From Nonomuraea typhae (GTDB taxonomy: Bacteria > Actinomycetota > Actinomycetes > Streptosporangiales > Streptosporangiaceae): 64,000 bases of DNA. Location: positions 62,001-126,000 of the forward strand of contig NZ_VRLV01000016.1 in NCBI RefSeq assembly GCF_009760925.1, written 5' to 3'. Within the stretch, counting starts at the first letter, position 1. Every line of letters starts with the position of its first letter. Under the pieces are notes generated by a model that saw only the letters and a program-made list of their open reading frames with translations, searched no databases and was not told where the DNA came from. The translations under genes were made by a program, and so were the position numbers. Shown one piece after another: positions 31,037 through 33,051 of this stretch.

Positions 31037-31109
31037 GCTTCAGGTGCGAAGGCGACCGGCTACTTCTTCAGGTGAAACTACGCCGGACGCCGCTTCCGAT
31101 CTCTGAAGC
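31037..31109 (+). ncRNA. Y RNA-like RNA 1 (no tRNA module)
   Basis: Helix P1: GCTTCAG (31037-31043) with CTGAAGC (31103-31109), 7 bp perfect. Internal loop GTGCGAA on the 5' side and GCTTCCGATCT on the 3' side. Helix P2: GGCGACCGGC (31051-31060) with GCCGGACGCC (31082-31091), one A-A mismatch. The tip is a 21-nt loop beginning TACTTC and ending CTAC. The CGAAGG-type 5' strand and GATCT 3' strand resemble the Ro-binding stem of bacterial Y RNAs. A Ro60 gene follows 360 bases downstream. Confidence 0.75.
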
Positions 31110-31126
31110 TCACAACTTGATATGCA

Positions 31127-31265
31127 CCTTCCCGGTGCGCAGGCAGCGGCTACTTCCTCTCTCAAAGGAGAGACGCGGGTTCGAATCCCGCCGCCCACCT
31201 CGGTGGACGTCGTCTAGCGGCCAAGGACACCTACGTCGCCGTCGCCGACCTTGATCTCGGGAGGG
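31127..31265 (+). ncRNA. Y RNA-like RNA 2 carrying a permuted tRNA-Glu
   Basis: Helix P1: CCTTCCCG (31127-31134) with CGGGAGGG (31258-31265), 8 bp with one U-G. Internal loop GTGCGCA / GACCTTGATCT. Helix P2: GGCAGCGGC (31142-31150) with GCCGTCGCC (31238-31246), one A-C mismatch. Between the P2 strands, instead of a simple loop, sits a whole tRNA body in permuted order: anticodon arm, T arm, 3' acceptor strand, 4-nt linker, 5' acceptor strand, D arm. The 3' loop contains CTTGA, as in Ro-binding Y RNAs. Confidence 0.8.
31155..31230 (+). tRNA. circularly permuted tRNA-Glu(CUC)-like module
   Basis: Order 28-72 then 1-27. Anticodon arm 31155-31170 with loop CTCTCAA (anticodon CTC at 31161-31163), variable AGAC, T arm GCGGG-TTCGAAT-CCCGC (31175-31191), acceptor 3' strand CGCCCAC (31192-31198), linker CTCG. 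Then acceptor 5' strand GTGGACG (31203-31209), D arm with GTC/GAC and a GG in the loop, A26 and C27. C27 (31230) pairs with G43, completing the anticodon stem. One A-C mismatch in the acceptor; no encoded CCA. Could be a pre-tRNA released by circularisation and RNase P/Z, or a tRNA mimic. Confidence 0.6.
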
Positions 31266-31280
31266 AACAACTTCAAAAGG

Positions 31281-31414
31281 CGTGCCCGGTGCGCAGGCAA
31301 CGGTTCCTTCCGACTCCTAATCGGCTGGTTGCGGGTTCGAGTCCCGCCGGTCTCCGGACCGTAGCTCAAGCGGTAGAGCAGCTGGCACCGTCGCCGACTT
31401 CGATCTCGGGCGCG
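31281..31414 (+). ncRNA. Y RNA-like RNA 3 carrying a permuted tRNA-Arg
   Basis: Helix P1: CGTGCCCG (31281-31288) with CGGGCGCG (31407-31414), 8 bp. Internal loop GTGCGCA / GACTTCGATCT. Helix P2: GGCAACGGT (31296-31304) with ACCGTCGCC (31387-31395), the same single A-C mismatch. Compared with RNA 2, P1 differs at many pairs and P2 at two, all compensated. The P2 tip again encloses a permuted tRNA body. Confidence 0.8.
31310..31381 (+). tRNA. circularly permuted tRNA-Arg(CCU)-like module
   Basis: Anticodon strand CCGA (31310-31313), loop CTCCTAA (anticodon CCT 31316-31318), TCGGC, variable TGGTT, T arm GCGGG-TTCGAGT-CCCGC (31331-31347). The acceptor is CGGTC (31348-31352) pairing with GACCG (31357-31361) across a TCCG loop. 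D arm GCTC/GAGC has a GG-containing loop, then A26 and G27 (31381), which pairs with C43. The closed acceptor has only 5 bp, shorter than a normal 7-bp acceptor. Release as a functional tRNA is therefore less sure than for the Glu copy. Confidence 0.55.
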
Positions 31415-31426
31415 ACCTATTGAACG

Positions 31427-31458
31427 AGGCCCCTTTCGCACTGCTATGAGAGGGGCCT
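31427..31458 (+). promoter_or_regulatory. 11-bp hairpin covering the Ro60 ribosome-binding region
   Basis: AGGCCCCTTTC (31427-31437) pairs with GAGAGGGGCCT (31448-31458), 10-nt loop, nine bases before the ATG of the Ro60 gene. The 3' arm contains GAGAGGGG, the only purine-rich candidate Shine-Dalgarno. No T-run follows. It could terminate the RNA array partly or hide the ribosome-binding site; either would let RNA and protein levels differ. Confidence 0.55.
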
Positions 31459-31467
31459 TGTCGCGTC

Positions 31468-33051
31468 ATGGCGAAGTTCAACAGCACGACCACGAAGACC
31501 GCGGTGTCGAGCCCGGTGAAGACCGAGGCGACGCCCTCCGGCCGCACGCATGAGGGTGCGCCCGGCTACGCCCGGGACGCCAAGGGAGAGCTTTTCCTGC
31601 TCGCGGTGACGAACATGGTCGGCGAGGACACCTTCTATGAGAAGAAGGGCGACCGAGACAACCGCTTCCGGGCGCTCGTCCACCAGGTGGCCGTCGAGGA
31701 CGGCGACTGGCTGGCCCGCTTCCTGCCGTGGCTCCGCCTGGACGCGAACATGCGCTCGGCCCCGATCGTCGCCGCCCTGGAGGCGGTCAAGGCGCGACTG
31801 GCAGCGGGCGAGAACGGCCTGAACCGGCAGCTCGTCAACACTGTCCTACAGCGCGCCGACGAGCCCGGCGAGGCGCTCGCCTACTGGACCTCCACCTACG
31901 GCCGCGCGATCCCCAAGCCCGTCAAGCGCGGTGTCGCCGACGCGGTGCAGCGCCTGTACAACGAGCGTTCGCTGGTGAAGTACGACACCAGCTCGCACGG
32001 GTGGCGGTTCGGCGACGTTATCGACGTCATCCACCCAAGCCCGGACCCGGGCAAGCCGTGGCAAGGAGCGCTGTTCGAGCACGCCCTCGACCGGCGCCAC
32101 AACCGTGACAAGCCGATCCCCGAGGTGTTGCGCACGCTGATCGAGCGGGCACAGCTCATGGCATTGCCGGTCGAGTCCCGCGCCGCGGTCCTGGCTGCGG
32201 AGCCCGAGCGGCTCGCCGCCGCCGGGATGACGTGGGAGGCGCTGGCAGGGTGGCTGCAGGGCCCGATGGGCAAGGGCGCGTGGGAGTCGATTATCCCGTC
32301 GATGGGGTACATGGCGCTGATCCGCAACCTCAGGAACTTCGACGAGGCCGGTGTCTCCGACGAGGTCGCCGCGCAGATCGTCGCCAAGCTCACCGACCCA
32401 GCTGAGGTGGCGAAGTCGAGGCAGCTGCCGTTCCGCTTCTACTCGGCCTACCGCAACGCGCCGTCCCTGCGGTGGGGTTACGCCTTGGACAAGGCGCTTA
32501 CGTCGGCCACAGCGAACGTGCCGTCGTTCAAGGGCCGCACGCTGATCCTGGTGGACACCTCCGCGTCGATGTCGAGCGGCGGCATCTCCGCCCGTTCCAC
32601 CGTCACGCCTGTCCAGGCGGCGGCGCTGTTCGGCGTGGCCCTGGCAACGCGGGGCGACCAGGTGGATCTGTACGGCTTCGCCGACGACGTGTTCAAGCAT
32701 CCCATCCCGGCCGGCGGGTCCGTCCTTAAGGAGATGGAGCGCTTCTGCAGGCGGATCGGCGAGGTCGGCCACGGCACGCAGATCGCTGACTCGGTGCGCC
32801 GCACCTACTCGGGCCACGACAGGGTGATCATTCTGTCCGACATGCAGACCATGTCCGGCTACTACGCGGGCGACGTCACCAGCGCTGCTCCCAAGCACAT
32901 CCCCATGTACGGCTTCAATCTGCAGGGCTACCAGCACGCGGCGATGCCAGCGGGCGGCGGAAACCGGCACGAGCTTGGAGGGTTCTCCGACTCCACGTTC
33001 AAGCTGATCCCGCTCCTGGAGGCAGGACGAAACGCCGACTGGCCGTTCTGA
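31468..33051 (+). CDS. rsr: Ro60/Rsr-like TROVE and vWA domain protein (527 aa)
   Basis: A full-length bacterial Ro60 orthologue. Residues about 20-340 form the TROVE HEAT-repeat ring (GYARDAKGELFLLAVTNMVG, LVHQVAVEDGDWLARFLPWL, then MRSAPIVAALEAV). This binds misfolded RNA in its hole and Y RNA on its outside. Residues about 355-520 form a vWA domain with a complete MIDAS start DTSASMS (Asp363) and a later SDMQTM (Asp458). In bacteria Ro works with Y RNA in RNA quality control and 3' processing. Here three Y-like RNAs lie directly upstream on the same strand. Confidence 0.92.
   Translation: MAKFNSTTTKTAVSSPVKTEATPSGRTHEGAPGYARDAKGELFLLAVTNMVGEDTFYEKKGDRDNRFRALVHQVAVEDGDWLARFLPWLRLDANMRSAPIVAALEAVKARLAAGENGLNRQLVNTVLQRADEPGEALAYWTSTYGRAIPKPVKRGVADAVQRLYNERSLVKYDTSSHGWRFGDVIDVIHPSPDPGKPWQGALFEHALDRRHNRDKPIPEVLRTLIERAQLMALPVESRAAVLAAEPERLAAAGMTWEALAGWLQGPMGKGAWESIIPSMGYMALIRNLRNFDEAGVSDEVAAQIVAKLTDPAEVAKSRQLPFRFYSAYRNAPSLRWGYALDKALTSATANVPSFKGRTLILVDTSASMSSGGISARSTVTPVQAAALFGVALATRGDQVDLYGFADDVFKHPIPAGGSVLKEMERFCRRIGEVGHGTQIADSVRRTYSGHDRVIILSDMQTMSGYYAGDVTSAAPKHIPMYGFNLQGYQHAAMPAGGGNRHELGGFSDSTFKLIPLLEAGRNADWPF

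Follow-up and report, generated by a model that had tools for sequence, protein, structure and literature searches.

Circularly permuted tRNA modules with an anticodon arm on candidate Y RNAs at a prophage Ro60 locus

Introduction

The closest described relatives of the RNAs in this study are bacterial Y RNAs of the YrlA type. In the portions of the literature that we draw on here, a bacterial Y RNA is reported to superpose on tRNA with a circular permutation (PMC11472068), and PMC8394870 gives YrlA D, T and acceptor arms and names it as a substrate of DusA and TruB. A role for YrlA as a competitive inhibitor of an anticodon nuclease has been suggested (PMC7790460, in extract). Extracts of phage work report that the Ro-like protein of mycobacteriophage LeBron is toxic on overproduction (PMC13148394) and that phage tRNAs evade anticodon nucleases (PMC10264068; PMC11555353). 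Algae and archaea have permuted pre-tRNAs, and the excerpt of PMC3978253 gives 1 to 74 bp as the length of the intervening sequence that is removed from the acceptor loop.

We describe Y RNAs beside a prophage Ro60 gene in which the tRNA-like module includes an anticodon arm.

Results

The Ro60 locus

By the window we mean the whole stretch of 64,000 nt that was analysed (Nonomuraea typhae, contig NZ_VRLV01000016.1, positions 62,001 to 126,000); all coordinates below count from its first letter. The window has phage genes for terminase, portal, head maturation protease, tape measure, minor tail and distal-tail-like proteins, and the Ro60 and Y RNA locus lies within this prophage. The host genome is 11.4 Mb. 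The same element is present in IMG/VR as the 91 kb contig IMGVR_UViG_2895374923_000002 (our locus L007), with a Ro60 that is 100% identical. The closest Ro60 relatives among the matches listed by a protein scan of genome contigs are from Planomonospora, at 76-77%. On the + strand, three consecutive Y RNAs are followed by a 15-pair hairpin and then by the Ro60 gene:

31041..31110 (approximate boundaries), + strand: Y RNA 1, a Y stem with a CTACTTC motif and without a tRNA-like domain (shared motifs; fold z-score -0.87)
31125..31266, + strand: Y RNA 2, a Y stem with a circularly permuted tRNA-Glu(CUC)-like module (scanner and structure model R1)
31155..31169, + strand: Y RNA 2 anticodon arm (nt 28-42), TCCT CTCTCAA AGGA, anticodon CTC at 31161-31163
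31175..31191, + strand: Y RNA 2 T arm, GCGGG TTCGAAT CCCGC
31192..31209, + strand: Y RNA 2 acceptor hairpin, 7 positions with one C-A mismatch, cap CTCG (YNMG type)
31212..31230, + strand: Y RNA 2 D arm (31212-31228) and nt 26-27
31282..31417, + strand: Y RNA 3, a Y stem with a circularly permuted tRNA module that has an Arg(CCU) anticodon loop (scanner and R1)
31310..31324, + strand: Y RNA 3 anticodon arm (nt 28-42), CCGA CTCCTAA TCGG, anticodon CCT at 31316-31318
31331..31347, + strand: Y RNA 3 T arm, GCGGG TTCGAGT CCCGC
31348..31361, + strand: Y RNA 3 acceptor hairpin, 5 bp, cap TCCG (UNCG type)
31364..31381, + strand: Y RNA 3 D arm (31364-31379) and nt 26-27
31424..31461, + strand: hairpin between the Y RNAs and the Ro60 gene (fold z-score -5.78)
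31468..33051, + strand: Ro60/Rsr-like protein of 527 aa, TROVE and vWA (Pfam TROVE and PHROG 850)

The product of 31468-33051 has the TROVE-then-vWA layout of Ro60/Rsr. Pfam TROVE matched with 54.8 bits (cut-off 23) and VWA_2 with 22.8 bits, which is under its cut-off of 27, and the gene also matches the PHROG 850 RNA-binding protein with 184 bits. The hairpin at 31424-31461 has 15 pairs with zero mismatches, three of them G-U, and we infer that it may be a terminator or a processing hairpin. A terminator scan of the + strand made no call, at this hairpin included, and a promoter scan gave no match. An Rfam ASdes match at 31661-31719 was dropped, as it has 21.5 bits against a cut-off of 40 and lies inside the Ro60 gene. 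Downstream of Ro60, the open reading frame at 33105-33848 matches phrog_8604 (unknown function) and has no Pfam match.

Anatomy of the Y RNAs

All three Y RNAs have a GGTGCG[A/C]AGGC element and a 3' GATCTC element, and CTACTTC is common to Y RNA 1 and Y RNA 2. In Y RNA 2 and Y RNA 3 the 5' strand of the Y stem leads through TACT or CCTT into the anticodon arm, which is followed by nt 43 and 4-5 variable nt. The T arm, the capped acceptor hairpin, nt 8-9, the D arm and nt 26-27 come next, and the 3' strand of the Y stem closes the element. The D arm of Y RNA 2 is near-identical to that of the host tRNA-Glu(ttc). The caps CTCG and TCCG are both YNMG-type tetraloops closed by C-G pairs.

We confirmed that the tip of both Y RNA 2 and Y RNA 3 is a complete tRNA whose opening lies between nt 27 and nt 28. 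The order of arms given in the initial annotation is present in both elements, as are the 27/28 opening, U33, the two anticodons, the T loops and the GG in the D loop. It had also pointed to a compensatory change at the 27-43 pair, and we find C-G in the Glu-like element (C31230 with G31170) and G-C in the Arg-like element (G31381 with C31325). When the sequences are put back into tRNA order, ARAGORN calls the Glu-like element tRNA-Glu(ctc) and the Arg-like element tRNA-Arg(cct). In natural order, its sole tRNA call in the window is a linear tRNA-Arg(cct) at 31282-31355, which is a misreading that takes Y-stem sequence for the missing arms.

Structure model R1 scores Y RNA 2 at 71.6 bits (E 1.6e-17) and Y RNA 3 at 70.2 bits, but the identical locus L007 is one of the 52 training rows for the first and the second is also a training row.

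When each RNA is folded as a single sequence, the cloverleaf is not the minimum-energy structure, and other folds are favoured. Forcing the cloverleaf costs 14 kcal/mol in the Glu element and 5 kcal/mol in the Arg element, the whole-element fold z-scores are only -1.79 and -0.93, and an alternative hairpin is possible for the Glu anticodon stretch. The support for the predicted cloverleaf is comparative.

Relatives at other Ro60 loci

In phage records searched with blastn, the Glu element recurs in Xanthomonas phages; its permuted order is the same there, and a diverged TROVE gene lies downstream of it. For a wider sample, two protein scans gave 132 loci on viral contigs (57 + 75) and 5 phage records brought these to 137, with the window's own locus L007 counted among them. 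The bacterial loci are the best 80 of 127 relatives listed by a third protein scan. To call an element, our scanner needs a T arm, an acceptor hairpin with complementary strands and a D arm; it ignores the anticodon region. We ran it on both strands with a threshold of 18.5 that was chosen after the first runs. Ten of the 231 elements were removed as ordinary tRNA arrays before the final counts, which left 221: 116 in 83 of the 137 viral loci and 105 in 70 of the 80 bacterial loci (best 80 of 127). Every one of the 221 is on the strand of the Ro60 gene, although the scan covered both.

The Y stem also recurs. An element's own flanks pair over at least 5 bp in 51 of 52 cases, against a mean of 34 and a maximum of 45 when flanks are swapped between elements (200 swaps). 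Of the 104 elements with an anticodon arm, 98 have a TACTTC-like motif on the 5' side of the T arm, as do 100 of the 117 others. In most alignment rows its final TC makes up nt 28-29 of the anticodon stem and faces GA or GG at nt 41-42. Both types of element, with and without a strict anticodon arm, occur together in 44 of 153 loci.

We also scanned viral contigs with a DNA pattern that uses no protein and that forces R37 and A38, and this found at least 120 loci. A Ro60-like open reading frame is present in 98 of the 120 listed (68 of 80 in a subset of these), and 97 pass the scanner. Outside the earlier sets of contigs the figure is 80 of 102 listed loci, the 18 others being, by contig name, on contigs already in those sets. 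No Ro60-like open reading frame was seen in 22 of the 120, of which 12 are shorter than 5 kb and 10 longer than 7 kb (L292, L306, L307, L349, L354, L356, L358, L360, L367 and L382). For these last ten, the Ro60 gene may be outside the contig, too diverged, or absent.

We rejected R1 as a genome-wide detector: ordinary neighbouring tRNA genes in the window's own genome score up to 52.3 bits. Since R1 scores ordinary tRNA genes, the 120 of 149 genomes that it reported are probably mostly tRNA arrays and give no prevalence.

Some public annotations sit on these elements. In Gordonia phage VanLee a tRNA-Arg(tct) annotation lies on a permuted Y RNA (L005 2650-2721), and in Xanthomonas phage 10KY502B a tRNA-Thr annotation does so (L002 4205-4272). 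With permuted Y RNAs annotated as linear phage tRNAs in these two cases, counts of phage tRNAs may be affected. Streptomyces phage Kradal has a permuted Gln-CTG element (L006 2605) with a scanner score of 13.4, so it was missed; we take its D arm to be Gln-like. Further Ro60-like genes are present in Halogranum tailed virus 1, Thermus phage phiLo, crAss-like Bacteroides phages, and Brevundimonas and Caulobacter jumbo phages.

The anticodon arm in the family

We asked how often an element has a fully paired stem of 4 bp, a 27-43 pair and a 7-nt loop, with the letters of the loop left unconstrained. This strict arm is present in 104 of the 221 elements and in 4.8 after shuffling of the flanks, so chance is excluded for the family. 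Loops of 4-6 and 8-12 nt give 3-9 elements against about 5, and a length of 3 gives 19 against 5.1. The other 117 elements fail the strict test and keep the T, acceptor and D arms; 25 of these have an imperfect arm (3 of 4 stem pairs), which we did not count as positive.

Among the 104 arms, U33 is found in 100, A38 in 99 and a purine at 37 in 97, none of which the test forces. The 27-43 pair is C-G in 79, G-C in 20, T-A in 4 and A-T in 1. For further counts, elements were grouped into 52 clusters, defined by 85% identity outside the loop and with U33 present. G36 and G37 are present together or both absent in 51 of the 52 clusters, a result reached in 0 of 20,000 permutations. All 8 clusters with G36 have G37, and 40 of the 44 with another nucleotide at 36 have A37 (the remainder have C, C, T and G). 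The 36/37 rule is also obeyed in 118 of the 120 listed pattern loci, where R37 is forced by the pattern. The loops thus keep the rules of tRNA anticodon loops: 7 nt, U33, G37 with G36, mostly A37 otherwise, and A38.

In an alignment of the 52 representatives, 97.9% of cells are paired and covariation is 0.788 against 0.224 when shuffled, but the rows were preselected for the anticodon stem and the 27-43 pair. Because of this preselection, the loop-length test is the unbiased one for the anticodon arm. An exact match to one of 25 host tRNA loops is seen for 27 of the 52 loops, against 13.2 after column shuffling.

What varies in the loop

The 104 arms have 31 anticodons for 18 amino acids, and more than one anticodon is found in 15 of the 19 multi-member clusters. 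A set of 23 orthologous Y RNAs from Streptomyces, all of which pass the arm test, has no variation at nt 28, 29, 31-33, 38, 39 and 41-43, and entropy is 1.16 at nt 34 and 1.26 at nt 35. Mapped on the tree of Ro60 genes, the anticodon has changed at least 9 times, with 4 changes at site 34, 5 at site 35, 1 at site 36 and 3 at site 37; the free sites 44, 47 and 59 have 4, 7 and 4. Positive selection on the anticodon was therefore rejected, as change at 34-35 is not in excess over the free sites. Since 34-35 change about as fast as the free sites, the anticodon itself may be unconstrained.

U36 is found in 31 of the 52 clusters and in 98 of the 120 listed pattern loci, against 9 of 25 host loops (a partial host set), and it is over-represented in the Y RNA anticodon loops. 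A34 is found in 7 of the 104 arms and in 11 of the 120 listed pattern loci, where 10 of the 11 are not ACG. To our knowledge, normal bacterial tRNAs hardly use A34, so these anticodons argue against mimicry of particular host tRNAs. The combination U36-A37-A38 marks a loop as a t6A substrate, and G36-G37 marks it as an m1G37 substrate. With 34-35 free and 33 and 36-38 locked, enzymes that read the region around position 37, or the fold of the loop, would fit better than imitation of a single isoacceptor.

Three loci with related scaffolds and the same anticodon stem, L084, L085 and L093, have the loops CTGTTAA, CTATTAA and CTGTGGA (anticodons GTT, ATT and GTG) in a tally made before removal of the 10 tRNA arrays; between L093 and L084, nt 36 and 37 differ jointly.

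Body, anticodon and acceptor end

The initial annotation had offered a permuted pre-tRNA as one of its two readings: after a cut at the base of the Y stem, nt 27 would be joined to nt 28 and RNase P/Z would open the acceptor loop, to yield a working tRNA-Glu and tRNA-Arg. It is true that ARAGORN reads the re-ordered sequences as tRNAs, that the Glu body is closest to the host tRNA-Glu(ttc) (72%), and that the host genome has an RtcB gene. There is also the precedent of algae and archaea, with intervening sequences of 1-74 bp (PMC3978253, in part). Of the 221 elements, 20 have CCA after the 3' strand of the acceptor; neither of the two in the window does.

The bodies tell against such a pre-tRNA. 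While body and anticodon agree on the amino acid in the Glu element, they do not in the Arg-CCU element, whose body is nearest to Met, Lys, Asn and Arg(tct) tRNAs with the host Arg(cct) outside the best eight. With the loop masked, body and anticodon point to the same amino acid in 5 of 52 actinobacterial elements (permuted mean 3.3, p 0.22), all of them Glu or Pro, in a comparison that used 30 reference tRNAs without Ser, Leu, Tyr, Gln and His and that included L171, which was later removed as an ordinary tRNA and disagrees. In 6 clusters, a Ser or Leu anticodon is combined with a body whose variable region is short (tallied before the 10 arrays were removed). The caps are tetraloops in 104 of the 221 elements, and 79 of these are GNRA, UNCG or YNMG against 14.6 by letter shuffles; by the same rule, 63 of the 221 are triloops. 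We know of no bulge-helix-bulge splicing endonuclease in bacteria, which also counts against a pre-tRNA. Two Planomonospora loci, L169 and L170, have Glu-CTC and Pro-AGG modules whose body matches the anticodon, unlike most others (noted before removal of the 10 arrays).

The pre-tRNA reading is thus poorly supported, given the mismatch of body and anticodon, the Ser and Leu anticodons on short-variable bodies, the stable caps, and the 117 of 221 elements without a strict arm, and we think it very improbable. On account of the first three of these points, we conclude that the modules are probably sealed mimics and not a source of translating tRNA.

Discussion

The other reading in the initial annotation, a tRNA mimic at Ro60, fared better: the Ro60 gene is adjacent, the Y stem is present, and there are homologues both in actinobacterial genomes and in phages that infect several different hosts. 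We lean, if only a little, towards the idea that the effector end of the Ro60 RNP mimics a complete tRNA, is sealed, and would dock enzymes which read the anticodon arm. In this model the backbone of a tRNA would have been opened at 27/28 and the stem that binds Ro60 plugged in there, with the acceptor end sealed by a short and often stable loop. As there would be no free 3' end, there would be nothing to charge. Such an RNA could fold like a tRNA, bind tRNA enzymes and display a real anticodon arm, and this handle could engage proteins that read anticodon arms at the Ro60 particle. The simplest candidate partners would be position-37 modification enzymes that fold and mark the arm, plus a partner nuclease or a baited anticodon nuclease. 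We infer that the RNAs are expressed, bind Ro60, fold like tRNA and dock partners.

Two other explanations bear on what the arm is for, and we are doubtful of both. The arm could be a decoy or sensor for anticodon nucleases, with defence or toxin enzymes that cut tRNA attacking the Y RNA loop and sparing the real tRNAs; the decoy would stay harmless because it is unchargeable, and its cleavage may alter the Ro60 particle. The spread of loops over 31 anticodons and 18 amino acids would suit this, and so would the different anticodons on related scaffolds in 15 of 19 multi-member clusters, such as GTT, ATT and GTG in L084, L085 and L093. There are reports of phage tRNAs that escape anticodon nucleases (PMC10264068; PMC11555353), and the decoy idea has been raised for YrlA (PMC7790460), as far as the extracts of these papers go. 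However, 34-35 do not change in excess of the free sites, there are A34 anticodons that lack a usual host counterpart, and many Streptomyces genomes have the modules, which is not obviously a need of phages only.

Alternatively, the arm could be a leftover of a captured tRNA that helps the domain to fold, while the domain tethers PNPase or gates Ro60 as in YrlA. As the known YrlA functions with no anticodon arm, the arm here could be passive, and this is consistent with the 117 of 221 elements that fail the strict arm test yet keep the T, acceptor and D arms (25 with an imperfect arm), with the 44 of 153 loci that have both types, and with the decoupling of anticodon and body. Against this, the 36/37 rule, U33 and A38 are kept across clusters, and nt 36 and 37 change jointly between related scaffolds (L084 and L093), none of which a passive loop would require.

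We also put forward, tentatively and expecting that it may well prove wrong, that sealed permuted tRNAs at phage and actinobacterial Ro60 loci are a large undescribed class of anticodon displays, made to stay uncharged and with an anticodon that differs among close relatives. They would be baits or sensors for anticodon nucleases or position-37 modification enzymes and would couple tRNA damage to RNA degradation by Ro60. These RNAs extend the tRNA mimicry of bacterial Y RNAs from a three-arm to a four-arm tRNA, and they keep an anticodon arm by tRNA rules in an RNA that should be unable to decode. The question of what binds the effector end of a Y RNA becomes directly testable.

Comparison with known systems

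Among permuted molecules, the permuted tRNA genes of algae and archaea share the 3' part before the 5' part and a short intervening sequence that bridges the acceptor ends. Both window elements have this order, with complementary acceptor strands. Their junction is at 27/28, whereas the excerpt of PMC3978253 gives 37/38 for some algae, 59/60 for archaea and various positions for C. merolae. The window's family also differs in being embedded in Y RNAs beside Ro60, in its often stable caps, and in the mismatch of body and anticodon. Linear phage tRNAs likewise bear anticodon loops, but the Y RNA modules would be unchargeable and bound by Ro60. With tmRNA and the tRNA-like structures of plant viruses they share mimicry of tRNA by something that is not a tRNA. 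Plant-viral tRNA-like structures keep the acceptor end. tmRNA is described as having a working acceptor end and no anticodon; the Y RNA modules are the reverse, with the anticodon arm kept and the acceptor end sealed.

YrlA (RF02553; PDB 6CU1) is closer. It shares the Y stem for Ro60, the permuted T, acceptor and D arms, and the position of the gene beside Ro60. Both window elements have the order T arm, acceptor hairpin, D arm, and both neighbour the Ro60 gene on the same strand. In Rfam the Arg element matches YrlA at 31324-31382 with 45.5 bits, which is under the gathering score of 69. The Glu element had no RF02553 match at E<=1, and 14 related loci, of 217 scanned, had none at the gathering score. 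The Rfam YrlA consensus had no blastn match in E. coli genomes, and the canonical enterobacterial YrlA is compared here by its description only.

Among the papers searched, titles and abstract openings gave no description of an anticodon arm on a Y RNA; as the primary YrlA papers were outside this scope, that is not proof of novelty. In the partial descriptions at hand YrlA has D, T and acceptor arms, and the inspected portion of the Rfam YrlA consensus has no anticodon hairpin ahead of the T arm, while the window elements add an anticodon arm between the Y stem and the T arm. Permuted tRNA mimicry by YrlA was already known, and the anticodon arm is the new part.
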